Source: Hysterium pulicare CBS 123377
Taxonomy: Eukaryota > Ascomycota > Dothideomycetes > Hysteriales > Hysteriaceae
NCBI GenBank assembly: GCA_000467715.1
Contig: AJFK01000184.1
Location: 1-64,000, forward strand
DNA length: 64,000 nt
Direction of reading: 5' to 3'
Made by a program: the position numbers and the translations under genes. The stretch's first letter is position 1. Each line of letters begins with the position of its first letter. The notes under the pieces were generated by a model. It worked only from the letters and a program-made list of their open reading frames with translations, made no database searches and was not told where the DNA came from. This document shows positions 26,541 through 44,945 of this stretch, in pieces.

Positions 26541-27678
26541 TCACGCCGTAAAACTCCTCCCCATCCTCTGCCCCGGAAGCTCCGAAAGCCAGCCCTCCGT
26601 ATCCTCCGTAACCGTCTTCTGCACCGCGCACTTATTCATATCAGCCACAGGCTGAGTCTTCAGTATCCCCTGCACCCCAGGACTCCCGCACTTATGAAAC
26701 ATGCACGTATCGTTCATGGCCCGCTGCAGCGAATCTCCCTTCCACCCAAACACGTAATCTGCATGAGTGCCATAGCCCTTGTTATCCATATACGACCAGA
26801 CGAAAGGCTGCGATCCGTCTTTCGGCCACATGTCTGCGAATGCCGTCGTGTTCCACATGGTTTCGTACGCCAGTTGCGGCATGCGGACGGGGTGGGAACT
26901 GGGACATGGACCGGCTTCGCGGAATCCGCCTTTGGTCGTGCTGTACATGTGAGACTGGTGGTCGGGGCTATCGAGGTTCACGCCGTCCCAGCACGCGGGG
27001 AAGTGGTGGATCGCCATGATGCCGGCGGGGCAGGGTTTGTTGGGGAAGTCGGGAGTCTCGCTGCCTCGGGTCATGATTGTCTGTAGGCAGGTGTATCGGA
27101 GGCCTGGATGGGCTTTTGCGCCGTCGAGCGTGTTTGTTGTGGGAGTGCCGACTGTCATGCGGAAGCCCTGAGAGCGCGTTAGTTTAAGCTAGATTTCCTT
27201 GACCAGCTGGAGAAGCAGGTCGGGGTTGGGTTCAGTATGAGACCGGGCATGCGCCACTTACGGGTTTGAAAGCGGTGATATGTTGGTCACCGTTGGTATC
27301 GAAGTCCTTCTGAGTATAGTAGATTGTCATTCCGCCTTTGATGTCGGTCGCATTATGGCCCTCTGTACCCAATTGAGCATTTGGGTATTGCGGTACCCGC
27401 TTGTAGGAGCCATTCTCATGTCGGAAGTACATCAACGCCGTCCAATAGTTGGAGAAATCCTCAGTGTAAGCACATGTTGTGCAACTCCCCTGCTCGCCAA
27501 TATCCCCTTTCATAGTCGCATTGAAAGCATTTCCGCCGACAATCTGATGAACGTGGGCCGAAGGGATGTTGCCAGGTTCGACGAGCGGATCTAAGCGTTG
27601 GACAGATACTGTCGAGCATCCGAAACGAATGGCAGCCTGGGAGAGCCCAGCTTGAAGCAGAAGAGAAAACAACTTCAT
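26541..27678 (-). CDS. Secreted DUF1996-domain protein
   Basis: Secreted fungal protein with a DUF1996 domain. Some relatives are reported as wall-associated or copper/stress-linked, but the biochemical role is unknown. Two exons (27678-27262 and 27167-26541) give 347 aa. A signal peptide (MKLFSLLLQAGLSQA) precedes the conserved opening of the domain. Diagnostic stretches are DPLVEPGNIPSAHVHQIVGG, GSCTTCAYTEDFSNYWTALMY, the junction FKP/GFRMTVGTP, FPACWDGVNLDSPDHQSHM and HADYVFGWKGDSLQRAM. These contain many Trp, His and Cys residues. The start at 27678 was taken over an upstream non-ATG opening because it begins the signal peptide. Confidence 0.92.
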
Positions 27679-29751
27679 TTTGAGTGACCTCGGGGCGATA
27701 GACAGATGTCGAAGCAAACGGTGCGGTGCGATGCTCCCTCGACTTATTTTAAATCCAAATCACTATCTATACTGCGAGAACTTGCCCCCACTTATCCGTC
27801 CAAGATACGGTGCTACCATATAGAATAATTAGCTCATTTATTCAAGTTGGCGATGCAGATCTTATTACCCATAGGCGATAGTTTCGCAAATTAGAAGAAT
27901 ATTAACCGGCCTATCCCCTTTTAGGAATGTTTAAATGTAGAACTTTGGGTAACTTATATTGAAAACGAGCCCGACTGCCGAAGTGCGAAGGTGCCATGCC
28001 TTATATATTAGATGTTGCTCCGAGACACCCACCTTGCAATTGGACATGACAACTACCGACCCATCACGTGATTGTACAATCATCTACTCAAGTGGATGGG
28101 TGGGGCGCACTCTATGTTGATTCCATGAATGGACTTCTCTTTCCATGATTCTTTGGGCAGGTTGGGAGACTGATAAGAAAAGTATGCCGACCAGTGAATT
28201 CGGAAGCATCTCATGAAAAGCAGGGAGAACGTGGACGGAAATCTGGAAGCGCCTGCTGCGAAATACTCGTACCTCATACCTTCCACATGCTATTTCCTGC
28301 GACGGTTCCCGATAATCCATTCTATCGTTATGAGGGGCGCATCGGGCTCTAGCAGAACCTGCGGGTCAATATCTGCAATGGCGACAGGTTTCGGCGAGGA
28401 GACATGATATGTGGGAGTTTAACGAAGATTGGGAGAATGAAAGAGTCCCAATGATGGAAGTAATACAGATAAGAGGGTTTAAAGACGGCCCATCGTAGAA
28501 CATAACACAGTAGCGAATGTAGAAGCGCAAGATGAGAGGTCCGGATGTCGAGCATCGCGAAGAGAAGTTTCTGAGCAGCACTCCAAGGCTTCCATTGCAA
28601 TTGCAGTACGTCTGCACTAAGCATTCCCTCGCTACGAGAATGCATACCGCTCGCGTCGGAAAGTATGCATCGCAAATGAGGTTCCTGCGATGGGTCGCTG
28701 CCAGCTAGCAGTCTTCGTGATTGGGAAGCTTTTGCAACTCCGAGTGCATTCTCCATAGTGAACGCGATATCAATCTCGAGTAAGCATCACAGTAGGCTGG
28801 AGCGACAGTATTCCCACCGCCTTCGTATACAGTCTGAAGTCATGGCGTAGGAGACTGAAGAAGCCAAGGAGATACATCATCGAACACTGCTTGAGTAACT
28901 ACGAGGCATGTAGGTATAAGAGAGAATATCAAGTTCCACCGGCGTCTTACTCTGGTCGGTTCGGATAAAGAGATATGAGTAGGGTTGAACGAGTGAGTGA
29001 TGCACGAAACGCAAGAGAGCGGTAGACCATGTTGGCGCTAGTGCGGCTTGGCATACTGACGAGTCCGGTACCTTCCACATCAAGTAACTCTCAAAAAACA
29101 TTGGTGTCGGAAGTAAATTTAGAACGCTTGCATGCTATAGGATAGCTTAGGGTAATTCCATCACTATACAAAGGCGCATGTATGTCCAAAATCCCAGTTT
29201 TACATTGATAGTATCCCTGGGCGAGCTAGCATGATAGGATACCAGCTTTCTAGTTACAAGTTCTCATAGATGAATTGAAGCAAACCTTGAAAGTCAACAA
29301 TACGCCAAACTCACATACACGAACACCAGAACGCCATATCCCAGATGCACAAACATCAGAAGTTTAGCAAGAAGCATAGATAGTGACTATGGGAAAAATA
29401 CATATAGACCAGCCGTATCCTTCTAATCTCCAACCCGAACCCATTAGAAATTTATCCAAATCATAGATTTTCTGGTGTTTGTATGTCGGTGATGTCGATC
29501 AGAATGCCGGTCTCGCTCGCAATGAACCAAGTTACATGTTGCTTGAGCCTATAAAACAAAGTGGTATAGTCGAAGAAGTGTACAGGAGTGGATGGTTCGA
29601 TGATTCAGCCGTCGGTTTCGTCGTCATCGATAACCATGTGGGACCGAGGGAAGAAGTCGGGATCCGAGAAAGTAAGTTAATAGGTATGAAGGAGAAGTCC
29701 AAACGTCGCAACCGTCTTATCTTACAGCCAGCATCTCAAAAGGCGAGACGT
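27679..29751. other. Gene-poor 2-kb interval
   Basis: Upstream of the DUF1996 gene and downstream of the pheromone precursor. Frames at 28349-28756 and 28877-29101 (minus) have no recognisable domain, no consistent splice partners and no signal peptide, so none is called. AT content is raised near 27760-28020. No tRNA or clear repeat seen. Confidence 0.4.
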
Positions 29752-30438
29752 TTAACCGCAAGATTGACCGACAAGGTGGCATCCGTGGATGTAAGCGGCG
29801 GCCTCAGCCCAGGCATCAGCGGACTTCTTCTCAAGCTCCTCGCGCTTCTCCTTTCCGCAAGACTGGCCAACCAAGTGGCAGCCGTGGATGTACGCCTCAG
29901 CTTCGGCCTCAGCCTCAGCTCCGCGCTTGACCTTCTCGCAGGTCTCGGTGTCGAAGCTGCACGCAGCTGCGAATGCCTCTGGGTCAGGGTGAGCTGCAGC
30001 ATATGCCTTGGCAACGGCCTCAGCGAGAGCCATGGCGGCACGCTTGGCCTTGCCACAAGATTGACCGACGAGATGGCATCCGTGGATGTAGGGCTCCGCG
30101 AATGGTGCAGGCGCGGCAGCTGGCGCAGCGAGAGCAGCGGCGGCAGCCTCGGCGGAACGGGCGAGCTTGTTGCAGGGCTGGCCGGGCATACCGCAAGAAC
30201 GGCGGACGACCAAGTCGTAGTGGGCACGCTTTTCTTTGCCGCAGGATTGGCCGACAAGGTGGCACCCGTGGATGTAGCGAGCATCAAGCTCGGTGATGTC
30301 GTATGGAGAGCGTTTTTCCTTTCCGCATGACTGGCCAACCAAGTGGCAGCCGTGGATGTATGGGTCGGCCTCTGGGACAGCAGCGGCGTTAACGCTGACT
30401 GCCATGACAGTGGCGGCAAGAGCGGTGGTGAACTTCAT
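29752..30438 (-). CDS. Repeat peptide pheromone precursor (alpha-factor type), five YIHGCHLVGQSCG copies
   Basis: Single-exon 228-aa secreted precursor with a signal peptide (MKFTTALAATVMAVSVNA). It carries five identical 13-mers at 30322-30360, 30238-30276, 30052-30090, 29854-29892 and 29755-29793. The first four end in GKEKR or GKAKR (Kex2), and the fifth ends at the stop codon. Peptides are preceded by Ste13-type dipeptides (EADP, FAEP, EAEAEAEA, AEAAA). Two divergent units, SCGMPGQPC and ACSFDTETC, lie between copies. The pattern C-x3-GQ-x-C is that of Pezizomycotina alpha-pheromones (for example WCHLPGQGC in A. fumigatus, recalled), which signal to the Ste2/PRE-2 receptor of the opposite mating type. 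Here Trp before the first Cys is replaced by Gly. Cys pairs probably form a disulfide. Alternative: a Kex2-processed RiPP precursor, but no UstY-type oxidase gene is in the window. Confidence 0.85.
   Translation of the reverse strand: MKFTTALAATVMAVSVNAAAVPEADPYIHGCHLVGQSCGKEKRSPYDITELDARYIHGCHLVGQSCGKEKRAHYDLVVRRSCGMPGQPCNKLARSAEAAAAALAAPAAAPAPFAEPYIHGCHLVGQSCGKAKRAAMALAEAVAKAYAAAHPDPEAFAAACSFDTETCEKVKRGAEAEAEAEAYIHGCHLVGQSCGKEKREELEKKSADAWAEAAAYIHGCHLVGQSCG
29755..30360 (-). repeat. Coding repeat array: five 39-bp units with irregular spacing
   Basis: Units encoding YIHGCHLVGQSCG at 29755-29793, 29854-29892, 30052-30090, 30238-30276 and 30322-30360. Spacing between unit starts is 84, 186, 198 and 99 bp in reading order. 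Units 1 and 4 differ at a single third-codon base. All other differences between units are also synonymous (Gly, His, Leu, Val, Gln, Ser, Cys codons vary). Confidence 0.92.
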
Positions 30439-41170: not shown

Positions 41171-42194
41171 GGTGGAGCAGAGATGCGATTGTACACAACA
41201 ACTGGTTCTATGAGATTACGCAGGGTAGGGTTTCAGTGTGATTGGTTCTTTAGGCATTCTGGCATTCTGGCATTGGCTTGGAGTTGAATAATTACCAGTT
41301 TTGGATCAAAGAAGGCTTTGGTTAAGCGTCTCAGCGATATGCATTCAATTAGCGAGGTGAGGACTTGGGATGATAAGAAGAAACTCAATAACAAAACAAT
41401 TCAAACTTCGAAGTCTCGTCTGAAAATTAGATAATGAGTGTTGCATGCTCGAGCATTGTCGATTCACAATACAGGTGATAGGATACGGAAAAACTTTCCT
41501 CCGAGAGGAGGACTTCACCTTTCACCTTTCAGGGGTTTCACCCGTTCTGCTCTCTATTCAGATTAATACGCTGACTAGCATTACACCCTACGGTCGCAGG
41601 CCTGAATTGTTACTTCAATTCTTTATTCAAAACCCAATGCACTCATGGAAAGCTGCGCCGGAATATCGGCCTCCGTATCTGCACCCTTCGATCGCTCGCA
41701 AGGTGTACCATCAGCAACTATCGCTGGAATTTATGCAAAAGCAGCTATGCTTATGCTCAATGAATCTGCCTCCAGGCCTATAAGTGTAGTATGGTCTGTA
41801 AGAGCCAGGCTACGCATACGTAGTAGCGTCGCTTTCGGAAGCGTCTAGAAACGTTTCTTTCTCTTGCGATTTCCAGGATGGAGATCACAGAGACCATCCA
41901 GTAGCTCTATACCATATCCAGAACAGTATCATCATTTTCATTAAAGCTTACACTGCCTTTTCCTCTTTCCTTCGTCAGACTGGCGTGGTTCACGTGTCGC
42001 TGCTCAATAACCTCTAATCATGGGACCGAATTCACTATGGAGATCTTTCACGGTGAAAAGGTCGGCTAATCAGAGCACCGCGTCATTTCACAGGTTCACT
42101 AGGCATATGTAAACATGTGTTTTTCCCGGACTCCCATTTTGACAAGACCCCACAACACGAACCGCGAACAACCCACCTTTGGTATCTAGACAAC
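41171..42194. other. Intergenic, no gene seen
   Basis: Between CDC6 and the DUF6604 gene. The frame 41445-41783 shows no domain. CATTCTGG is tandemly repeated near 41254-41275. The frame of the next gene is open from 42117, but its likely start is 42195. Confidence 0.4.
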
Positions 42195-44945
42195 ATGGAT
42201 TTCCTCAAAAACAATTTCCTGTTCGATACGTATCGAAAATATAAAGGAGAGACTTCACACTTACGTGAGTGGCTCTTCGACACGGCAAAGAAGGTCAAGC
42301 CGGAGTTGCCAGCGAATATTCTCTCGCAAGGACCATCGAAACACAAAATTACAATCCGAGGTTTTGTGCAACTAGCTGAAATCATTCGAGACTCTGATGG
42401 AGATATTGCGGACAGAGCCAGAGCGCAAGACCTTGTTCGAAATGCCGTTCGACTGAGGAAGGAGACTACCGAATGGTTCCGTGTTCAAGCACGCGACACC
42501 GATTCCCATGCATATTTTACGTCTGTTCTGGAAGAAGTTGGCCGCATTCTGGAACCGATGTCAAAGAACGAGGGAGGCGCTCGGAAGAAGAAACGTCAAC
42601 AAGATGTTCCTGAATTTGAGCTCCCATCCAACGTGTACTTAATTCTGGAAGTACAAGAACCCGACTCGACAGCGTCCAACCCGACGAACTATCGCCAGGG
42701 AAGGAATGACATTCCTTCTCGTGGAAGAGAAAAAGGGCACAGGCCGCCCTCCGCAAAAAGTAACAAGTTCAAGGTGACCGAGGCAGACATTGCCTTGGAG
42801 AGGAATTTTGCATTGCTGTGCTTCTTCTATGACTTAAATGGCATCCGAGAGTTTGTGTCCCAAGTATGGAATGACTACAAAGAACGGAGACTCGATTTGG
42901 CATCGGCCGCTAGTGTCACAAACATTGCTATCGGCATCATCCAACGTAACGTCAATGCCTTCATAGAGGAGTTCGACGATGGCCTTCGGTCGGGCCCTAA
43001 TACCAATAGAACCCTGGCAGACACCGTCAAGCACTTTTGTACTTCCCTGCTTCCAAACACAGACCTCTCTTTGCGCGCACTTCAAGAGGGGACCGATGCG
43101 TTAAGAATCCCCAGGATCTTCTGCATGGAAGCGATCTTACAGTTGGAAAGCCATCGCTCAGGCCGGCCGGACAGAGATTCTTCTATCCTTGCCGCATACT
43201 TGCTCTTGTCCTTTGATAAGCTAAGGATTCCTGGACTCCTTCCACCGCTAATGGATAATTTGACCCTGGCAATGTTATCATTAGATTCGGCCTCATCTCA
43301 ATGGTTGCCTTTCGCCCTCCAGATCATTTTGGACATACCTAAGCAGCTAAAGGAAGAGCGCTTTGAGCCAACTAAAGAGTTCCTAGATGAAGGCGCAAGA
43401 ATTGCCCATTCAATGCTAGAACATCTGAAGTTCGAGGCTGCGTTAAAGAAGAGTGAAGTTACACCAGATTATATGCTCAAAGAGCAGCCAAACTTCTACC
43501 GTCTCTTTAGAAAGGACTTGAATACTATCCGGAGCTGGACTTTAGATGACCATGTCGCGGAGAAAGCTAAAGCTGCTGGCCTAAAACATCCTGAACCGCC
43601 GTTCTTCCTCCTCACTTATCATCCCGTCTTGACGGGAATGATCCTGTACCATTTTTACTCCAAGCTTCAGTCACAGAGCATCAATCATGTTCGGTGGGTT
43701 GTGACAGCAATGTCACACTTGTACAACGCTGCCAAACAGGTGGGCGGACTCCGTGCAGATTGGGCAGATCTCGACTTCGTTATCCAACATCACGGAGCTC
43801 AACAAGTCTTTATTGGGCCTCCCCCAACTGATCCCTCGGAATTCAAACCACGTCTGGACTTAGCCTGGGGCGGCAGTCTACAGAATTACGCCTCAGATCG
43901 GCGCACAAGCAAGTGGAGACGTTCGAACACGGATTCTAAGCGTGGACTAAAGCTACATTCAACATTCTGCGACCTGCTTCGGAAATATCACTACGATCCT
44001 CCGGATCAGAGGTGGATCGCACTTCAAAACATAATGGCTCATCTCACGCAGCTCGGCCAAGGTGTAGAAGAAAACATCCGAGACAACGAGGTGATACTAA
44101 CAGCTTTCAACGATATCAGCAAAGAACTGAAATCACCATCATCGGCGCTAAAATTGTCAAAATCGCAGCGCAAGAGGCAACGTAAAGCGGCCAATATGGC
44201 GCCATCCACCCCTCCAGCTATCAACACACCTGCGCCGAACCAGCCGCCAGACTTTCAGCCGCCCAAGGAGAGCCTAGTCCAGCAACTCGAGACTATGAAA
44301 TCCCTCCTCCGAGAAGACGAGCTCCACCGTAAATTCGACTACCTGGCTCTATACCGGCGAATCCACCGCCTTATCCACCGCCTACGCGCAGAAGTGCTAT
44401 ACGTGGAGGGATCAACCGATCTGACGCTGCTGGATGCGAAGACCGAACCACCATCCGACCACGCCCTCCTAGACACCCTCTTCATCAACCTCCAAAAGAC
44501 CCCAAAAGACCTAGCCCAAATCACCAAAATCGGCGCCATCATGCAAGAAACGCTCACAGAAGAAGGCACCACAGGCCTCGACCAAGCCGAAGCCCGCCTC
44601 GGCCGCTGGGTCGATGCCACAGAGCAGCAAACACCCAACTCCCCAGACCCCGACTTGCAAGCACAACCCGAGCGCCCGGCCCTCGATATCGAGAATCTGG
44701 CCAAGAGCTACGAGAAACATGGCGTTGTGTATCGGCCTCGTAGGTCGAGACGTGTCCTGCGCCAGTATCCTGGGTCGGTGCATTATTTGCATCGGAGGCC
44801 GAGATTGGCTACGCCGCCGCTTATTCAGGCGCTGAGGGGGGTGGAGAGGAGAGTTGCGGGGGAGGATGGGTGGGAGGAGTGTAGTGAGGGTAGTTCTGGG
44901 TCTGGGGAGGAGGTGTGGGAGGATAGTGTTGAGGAGTTGGAGTAG
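42195..44945 (+). CDS. DUF6604-domain protein of unknown function
   Basis: Large intron-less protein. From the ATG at 42195 it is 916 aa; an upstream in-frame ATG at 42117 would add 26. The lower start is preferred because it begins MDFLKNNFLFDTYRKYKGET, where the family normally starts. The N-terminal ~270 residues match the fungal DUF6604 pattern: TYRKYKGETSHLREWLFDTAKK, a basic patch ARKKKRQQ, and the DIALERNFALLCFFYDLN block with EFVSQVWNDYKERRLDLASA. The remainder is helical (many Leu-rich stretches) with a QRKRQRKA basic motif and an acidic C-terminus. No catalytic motif or membrane segment is seen. Role unknown, and the neighbours do not help. Confidence 0.82.
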   Translation: MDFLKNNFLFDTYRKYKGETSHLREWLFDTAKKVKPELPANILSQGPSKHKITIRGFVQLAEIIRDSDGDIADRARAQDLVRNAVRLRKETTEWFRVQARDTDSHAYFTSVLEEVGRILEPMSKNEGGARKKKRQQDVPEFELPSNVYLILEVQEPDSTASNPTNYRQGRNDIPSRGREKGHRPPSAKSNKFKVTEADIALERNFALLCFFYDLNGIREFVSQVWNDYKERRLDLASAASVTNIAIGIIQRNVNAFIEEFDDGLRSGPNTNRTLADTVKHFCTSLLPNTDLSLRALQEGTDALRIPRIFCMEAILQLESHRSGRPDRDSSILAAYLLLSFDKLRIPGLLPPLMDNLTLAMLSLDSASSQWLPFALQIILDIPKQLKEERFEPTKEFLDEGARIAHSMLEHLKFEAALKKSEVTPDYMLKEQPNFYRLFRKDLNTIRSWTLDDHVAEKAKAAGLKHPEPPFFLLTYHPVLTGMILYHFYSKLQSQSINHVRWVVTAMSHLYNAAKQVGGLRADWADLDFVIQHHGAQQVFIGPPPTDPSEFKPRLDLAWGGSLQNYASDRRTSKWRRSNTDSKRGLKLHSTFCDLLRKYHYDPPDQRWIALQNIMAHLTQLGQGVEENIRDNEVILTAFNDISKELKSPSSALKLSKSQRKRQRKAANMAPSTPPAINTPAPNQPPDFQPPKESLVQQLETMKSLLREDELHRKFDYLALYRRIHRLIHRLRAEVLYVEGSTDLTLLDAKTEPPSDHALLDTLFINLQKTPKDLAQITKIGAIMQETLTEEGTTGLDQAEARLGRWVDATEQQTPNSPDPDLQAQPERPALDIENLAKSYEKHGVVYRPRRSRRVLRQYPGSVHYLHRRPRLATPPLIQALRGVERRVAGEDGWEECSEGSSGSGEEVWEDSVEELE

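Follow-up and report, generated by a model that had tools for sequence, protein, structure and literature searches.

A predicted alpha-pheromone precursor of Hysterium pulicare with five identical copies of a noncanonical peptide and two further two-cysteine units

In a 64,000-nucleotide stretch of the genome of Hysterium pulicare CBS 123377, hereafter the window, a small open reading frame with a five-copy repeat raises the question of whether it encodes an alpha-pheromone precursor and which of its peptides could act as signals. The reading frame, to which the initial annotation had drawn attention, is real: it lies on the minus strand, begins with an ATG at 30438, closes with a TAA that ends at 29752, and encodes a protein of 228 aa, P0001 (Table 1). 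Upstream, the frame stays open as far as 30723 and includes a further ATG in frame, and the start at 30438 was chosen because the relatives described below begin with MKF or MKV in the alignment. The N-terminal segment MKFTTALAATVMAVSVNA aligns with these starts and is, by inspection, a putative secretion signal, after which the dipeptides AA-VP-EA-DP run in phase up to Y27. No Pfam family matched P0001 at E 0.001. An antisense frame on the plus strand (29467-30330, 287 aa) was rejected, since it has no Pfam match and the repeats are kept constant in none of the three antisense frames over P0001.

P0001 contains the peptide YIHGCHLVGQSCG five times, at residues 27-39, 55-67, 117-129, 183-195, and 216-228, and, just as had been claimed, the copies are identical, with no amino-acid difference in any of the ten pairs. 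At the DNA level, 10 of the 39 columns vary, all of them silently, and pairs of copies differ by 1 to 10 bases, units 1 and 4 by one base only. Out of the 117 single changes possible from the majority 39-mer, 27 are silent, and all 14 distinct changes found among the copies belong to this class, with a crude chance probability of 1.2e-9 that treats the changes as independent. Thus, most of the copies are not fresh duplicates and the identity of the peptide has been maintained; a chance origin of the repeat pattern is excluded. Searched with a degenerate DNA pattern for CHLVGQSCG, the 37.2 Mb genome gave matches at these five places only (reversed control, 0), and a six-frame genome search with P0001 as query found no second alpha-pheromone precursor, although a very different one could escape such a search.

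The layout of the units also agrees with precursors of Pezizomycotina, which repeat a peptide of 9-14 aa with the pattern C-x3-GQ-x-C several times and have Kex2 sites after the units and Ste13-type XA/XP dipeptides before them; P0001 has five such copies plus one variant, and both kinds of processing site. The KR sites described after the first four units all have the form K-x-KR (KEKR, KEKR, KAKR, and KEKR), and the fifth unit ends at the stop codon, which suggests that the mature C terminus is CG. XA/XP dipeptides precede four of the five units (DP, EP, EA, and AA), in line with the "most units" of the initial annotation, and unit 2 has AR instead. Unit 2 is without counterpart in the alignment with the two closest relatives, P0002 and P0003.

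Table 1. Features of the precursor gene and its neighbours (positions in the window)
Feature	Position	Strand	Remark
Precursor CDS (P0001)	29752..30438	-	228 aa, intronless as read; homologues P0002-P0011
Putative signal peptide	30385..30438	-	residues 1-18, by inspection
Unit 1, YIHGCHLVGQSCG	30322..30360	-	then KEKR
Unit 2, YIHGCHLVGQSCG	30238..30276	-	monobasic DAR before, KEKR after
Embedded single unit SCGMPGQPC	30172..30198	-	residues 81-89, between RR and NKLAR
11 in-phase XA/XP dipeptides, KLAR site to unit 3	30091..30156	-	dipeptide count
Unit 3, YIHGCHLVGQSCG	30052..30090	-	then KAKR
13 in-phase XA/XP dipeptides up to Cys160	29962..30039	-	ladder from upstream KAKR
GQ-less C-x6-C unit CSFDTETC	29938..29961	-	residues 160-167, then EKVKR
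Unit 4, YIHGCHLVGQSCG	29854..29892	-	then KEKR
Unit 5, YIHGCHLVGQSCG	29755..29793	-	reaches stop codon
DUF1996 gene	26544-27759	-	Pfam
Class I (M) tRNA synthetase	32.6 kb		Pfam
MutS	34.2-37.6 kb		Pfam
Cdc6-type ATPase	39-41 kb		Pfam
DUF6604 protein, 962-aa frame	42057-44942	+	Pfam

A comparison of the whole precursor with other proteins, which the initial annotation had asked for, scored the 8000 candidates sharing most words with P0001 and returned ten matches at E <= 10, all of them at E 1.5e-6 or better and of a common design (P0002-P0011). Among them, a Bombardia protein (P0009, E 3.2e-8), whose UniRef name starts with "Clock-controlled pheromone", provides homology to known alpha-pheromone precursors. 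When residues 22-95 of P0001 were used as query, only P0003 was returned out of 11 candidates and even P0002 was missed; this route brought no further family members. P0001, P0002, and P0003 form a close trio. The unit of P0002 is YVNGCHRVGQGCG, with T for V in one copy and no Tyr in another (QVSGCHR), thus the exact mature N terminus may vary, and the repeated unit of P0003 is NCWRPGMSCS. In the alignment, identity in the repeated units is 34/51 between P0001 and P0002, 18/49 between P0001 and P0003, and 18/49 between P0002 and P0003, and the corresponding values in the spacers are 86/121, 75/112, and 76/112. Therefore, the pheromone evolves faster than the spacers in the comparisons that involve P0003, whereas both change at similar rates between P0001 and P0002.

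The same set of precursors modifies the description of the peptide itself. The Gly before the first Cys of YIHGCHLVGQSCG is real, but the Trp that it was said to replace is not near-invariant, since among the 11 precursors, P0001 included, that position is W three times, F four times, Y once, G twice, and N once. In addition, the Leotiomycete peptides in the available text of PMC10569646 include RCGHPGQPCG and CKYVGQGCW, neither of which has Trp before the first Cys. The four-residue extension YIHG is likewise present but not unique, as the P0004 unit IIHFCHRPGQSCG begins with the four residues IIHF and shares, by eye, 9 of 13 residues with YIHGCHLVGQSCG. P0004 resembles P0001 in this extension, in the GQSCG end, and in matching spacers; P0004 and P0006 differ from it in having F before the Cys, RP replacing LV, and no odd unit. 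P0007 carries five units with a long N-terminal extension (KVYGRLRNWIGFCGVPGQACG type), longer than that of P0001, and, besides these, a lone odd unit FCSSPGQPC that comes third, in a layout that resembles P0001.

The genome that encodes P0001 also holds STE2, STE3, Kex2-type and DPP-type proteases, and a MAT1-1 gene. The STE2 gene lies on contig C425 in two exons (382 aa; first exon E 8.7e-89 in the genome search), and residues 10-301 and 10-303 of its product match two PDB sequences that carry the name pheromone alpha factor receptor. Among the best 120 of 445 matches of this receptor, the best named one is from Glonium stellatum (59% identity, 99% coverage), a Dothideomycete of the order Gloniales, followed by Lophium, Lophiotrema, Mytilinidion, and then largely pleosporalean fungi, and some partial sequences are closer, up to 69% over two thirds of the length. 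On the strength of this single gene, the window is assigned to the Dothideomycetes at class level. Pheromone-response genes are stated to be present in Cenococcum and Glonium in the accessible part of PMC5023957. STE3 is also present, the processing proteases are represented by one P_proprotein row (Kex2-type) and one DPPIV_N row (DPP-type), and the S10 carboxypeptidases comprise 35 rows.

The MAT1-1-1 MATalpha HMG box is on contig C219, together with genes for CIA30, RhoGAP, and an RNA methyltransferase and with an Exo_endo_phos frame that is APN2-like in combination with the GRF zinc finger next to it, itself a match below the curated cut-off. Genes of these kinds border MAT loci. None of the 8 HMG_box rows in the genome lies on C219, thus the sequenced strain is probably MAT1-1. 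According to the available portion of PMC10182648, MAT1-1 is generally the type that expresses the alpha-pheromone. Two other places in the genome hold related matches. A pair of weak MATalpha_HMGbox matches, side by side at C582:56541-56836 and close to a hexokinase gene, could represent a fragment or a different HMG gene. The HMG_box match at C353:177314-177569 is in two pieces, as though an intron split it, and could belong to MAT1-2-1 or to an HMG gene of the ordinary kind.

Homologues, layout, and genome context support the alpha-pheromone type proposed in the initial annotation and, judged from its sequence, P0001 is very probably an alpha-pheromone precursor (ppg1/ccg-4 type) of a filamentous ascomycete. 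We infer that it is secreted, cleaved, active on STE2, and controlled by mating type. P0001 would enter the secretory route through its putative signal peptide and would be cut by the Kex2-type protease after KR or KK, and seemingly also behind certain monobasic sites (KLAR, for example, which is not a classical dibasic site); a Ste13-type dipeptidyl peptidase would then strip the XA/XP dipeptides and a Kex1-type carboxypeptidase would trim basic residues from the C termini. Since Kex1 alone would leave GKE or GKA from KEKR and KAKR, C-terminal trimming is not fully explained by this scheme. The main product, YIHGCHLVGQSCG, would act on the STE2 receptor of the opposite mating type, and an altered receptor specificity of this predicted pheromone is plausible.

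Identical repeats cut by Kex2 behind a putative signal peptide, with Tyr as the first residue of the core, are also what a precursor of a cyclic RiPP (dikaritin, ustiloxin type) would offer, in which UstYa (DUF3328) cyclises the repeat cores through Tyr, and UstYa genes are plentiful in the genome. However, all 43 UstYa match rows fall on contigs other than C149, which carries the precursor, and a RiPP cluster at this locus was rejected on that ground. Moreover, the core is YIHG and not Y-x-I-x as given in the available text of PMC7329392, the relatives have YVNG and NCWR at this place, and the unit of P0003 has no Tyr at all, whereas the C-x3-G-Q-x-C core and the XA/XP ladders are signs of a pheromone. 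The same text reports that 98.6% of 216 putative fungal pheromones are without DUF3328 neighbours. A RiPP precursor is therefore a most improbable reading of P0001. The UstYa rows are spread over many contigs and mark many possible ustiloxin-type loci elsewhere in the genome. The Pfam neighbours of the precursor gene from DUF1996 to the Cdc6-type ATPase (Table 1) are housekeeping or unrelated genes, in a scan that covered 39 of the 110 listed frames of at least 110 aa in the window plus one of 95 aa. At 3224-7117 on the plus strand, the window also encodes an NLR-like NACHT and ankyrin-repeat protein (1298-aa frame) that starts with a weak, below-cut-off PigL_N match.

P0001 could, in turn, be a Kex2-processed repeat protein derived from a pheromone and repurposed for chemotropism, self-signalling, or host interaction. 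There are precedents in the parts available of two studies: the alpha-pheromone of Fusarium doubles as a chemoattractant and quorum signal (PMC7289986), and in three Leotiomycetes pheromone expression is independent of mating type, the alpha-factor being not exclusive to one type (PMC10569646). Nevertheless, P0001 is the sole precursor found in this genome, where the receptor is full-length and MAT1-1 is represented, and a second role would leave the mating role possible, hence we regard a repurposed protein as quite unlikely and keep a mating pheromone as the preferred reading.

The unit content of this predicted pheromone precursor is richer than first described. The five 13-mers stand, but two more C-x6-C units, SCGMPGQPC and CSFDTETC, had been missed. 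SCGMPGQPC is identical in all nine residues in P0001, P0002, and P0003, whose multicopy peptide changed, and among the columns without A, E, P, K, or R, 7/7 are invariant in this unit versus 9/29 in the spacers and 13/49 in the repeated units. The GQ-less CSFDTETC corresponds to CGFEADTC and CSFGDAIC in P0002 and P0003, with only 3-4 of 8 residues identical, and here GQ was lost and the C-x6-C spacing and a nearby downstream KR were kept. The origin of SCGMPGQPC may be read from its downstream spacer, KLAR-SAEAAAAALA, whose counterparts after unit 1 of P0004-P0006 are KLKR/KVKR-AA[DE]AAAEALA. Since the Ala-rich spacers gave many low off-diagonal shuffle p-values, their ranking alone was used, in six of the eight outside relatives (all except P0008 and P0010). 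The best partner of SCGMPGQPC was the first unit in 9/9 comparisons with P0004-P0006. For unit 3 of P0001 and the units that correspond to it, the second unit came out on top in 6/6 comparisons with P0004 and P0006 and, with P0005, shared the top score or trailed it by one point. Against P0007, the best partner was the unit at residue 113 in 3/3, a result that does not separate the units because the next unit of the query also prefers that place; with P0011, the second unit ranked first in 3/3, and with P0009 the partner was variable. These rankings suggest that SCGMPGQPC occupies the place of an ancestral ordinary repeat, and both additional units look like altered older repeats.

Dipeptide ladders indicate how the units could be released. 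Directly after KLAR, an in-phase XA/XP ladder of 11, 11, and 10 dipeptides is found in the three precursors of the trio, ending at Y117 in P0001 and halting five residues short of the unit in P0003 (ELYIR remains), and a ladder of 13 dipeptides ends exactly at the Cys of the GQ-less unit in 3/3. Further ladders of five dipeptides each lead in P0001 from KVKR to Y183 and from KK to Y216, and no ladder precedes unit 2 or SCGMPGQPC. A ladder was defined by consecutive A/P residues at second positions, which makes its purity a product of the definition but does not impose an end at a unit start. A/P residues occupy 41/52 second versus 12/53 first dipeptide positions of the spacers in P0001, 42/53 versus 10/54 in P0002, and 33/63 versus 11/63 in P0003, with spacers chosen by rule and overlapping ones counted twice in places. 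Ladders and phase bias support trimming of the Ste13 type and a cut behind the monobasic KLAR, and the ladders suggest that at least CSFDTETC is excised.

Whether the two additional units are signals is a separate matter. They could be decayed repeats or pro-region elements that serve folding, sorting, or inertia, excised or not, and we lean slightly towards such a non-signalling role: in P0002 and P0003, the flanks of SCGMPGQPC, AR or QR on one side and KLAR on the other, are not classical dibasic sites, CSFDTETC lacks GQ and is variable, and the 10-column invariant run at SCGMPGQPC was not significant on column shuffle of the three sequences (p 0.20). Both ladders, 3/3 in each case, and the invariance of the SCGMPGQPC columns relative to the spacers speak against it. 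We also put forward tentatively, as a rather doubtful proposal, one precursor with two messages, in which a fast-changing multicopy peptide (YIHGCHLVGQSCG, or YVNGCHRVGQGCG and NCWRPGMSCS in the relatives) would mark the species, and the frozen single SCGMPGQPC, a candidate second signal with an old, Leotiomycete-type CGxPGQPC core, would address several species or a different receptor. Together with these two, the GQ-less CSFDTETC would be released as a third peptide.

The peptide YIHGCHLVGQSCG and the STE2 of the same genome constitute a candidate ligand-receptor pair, in a lineage whose receptor is near those of Glonium, Lophium, and Pleosporales among the best 120 of 445 matches, yet the Pleosporales pheromones published in the available text of PMC6339444 are of the PYG type. 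Their core, PYG[L/M]P[I/V]G, is absent by inspection from the 228 aa of P0001. Moreover, the unchanged SCGMPGQPC makes it testable whether a single precursor can combine a signal that is old and shared with one that is new and lineage-specific, a question that bears on the joint change of pheromone and receptor. Five peptide strings searched for in literature text, supplements and figures lying outside the search, were not found there, and divergent and mixed repeats have already been described in published surveys, as far as their available text goes (PMC13037118; PMC10569646).

Compared, via P0009, with the Pezizomycotina precursors ccg-4 of N. crassa and ppg1 of Sordaria, P0001 likewise has several C-x3-G-Q-x-C copies, K-x-KR after the unit, and XA/XP before it, and its putative signal peptide would be a further common feature. 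It differs from this type in having G in place of an aromatic residue ahead of the first Cys, G in place of W at the C terminus, and the odd embedded unit. Two-cysteine pheromones are known in 13 species of non-pleosporalean Dothideomycetes, according to the accessible part of PMC6339444, and the peptide of P0001 has two Cys as well; the STE2 of the same genome (best 120 of 445 matches) suggests the same taxonomic class, and the Xylona peptide RFCHLPGQGCSK from the same source shares CHL-x-GQ-x-C with YIHGCHLVGQSCG. Finally, the Leotiomycete alpha-factors WCGRPGQPC, RCGHPGQPCG, and RCGYPGQPCG in the available text of PMC10569646 have the CGxPGQPC core of SCGMPGQPC, which may reflect retention or convergence; in those fungi it is the repeated main signal, whereas in P0001 it occurs as a single copy with S before the Cys and KLAR after it.
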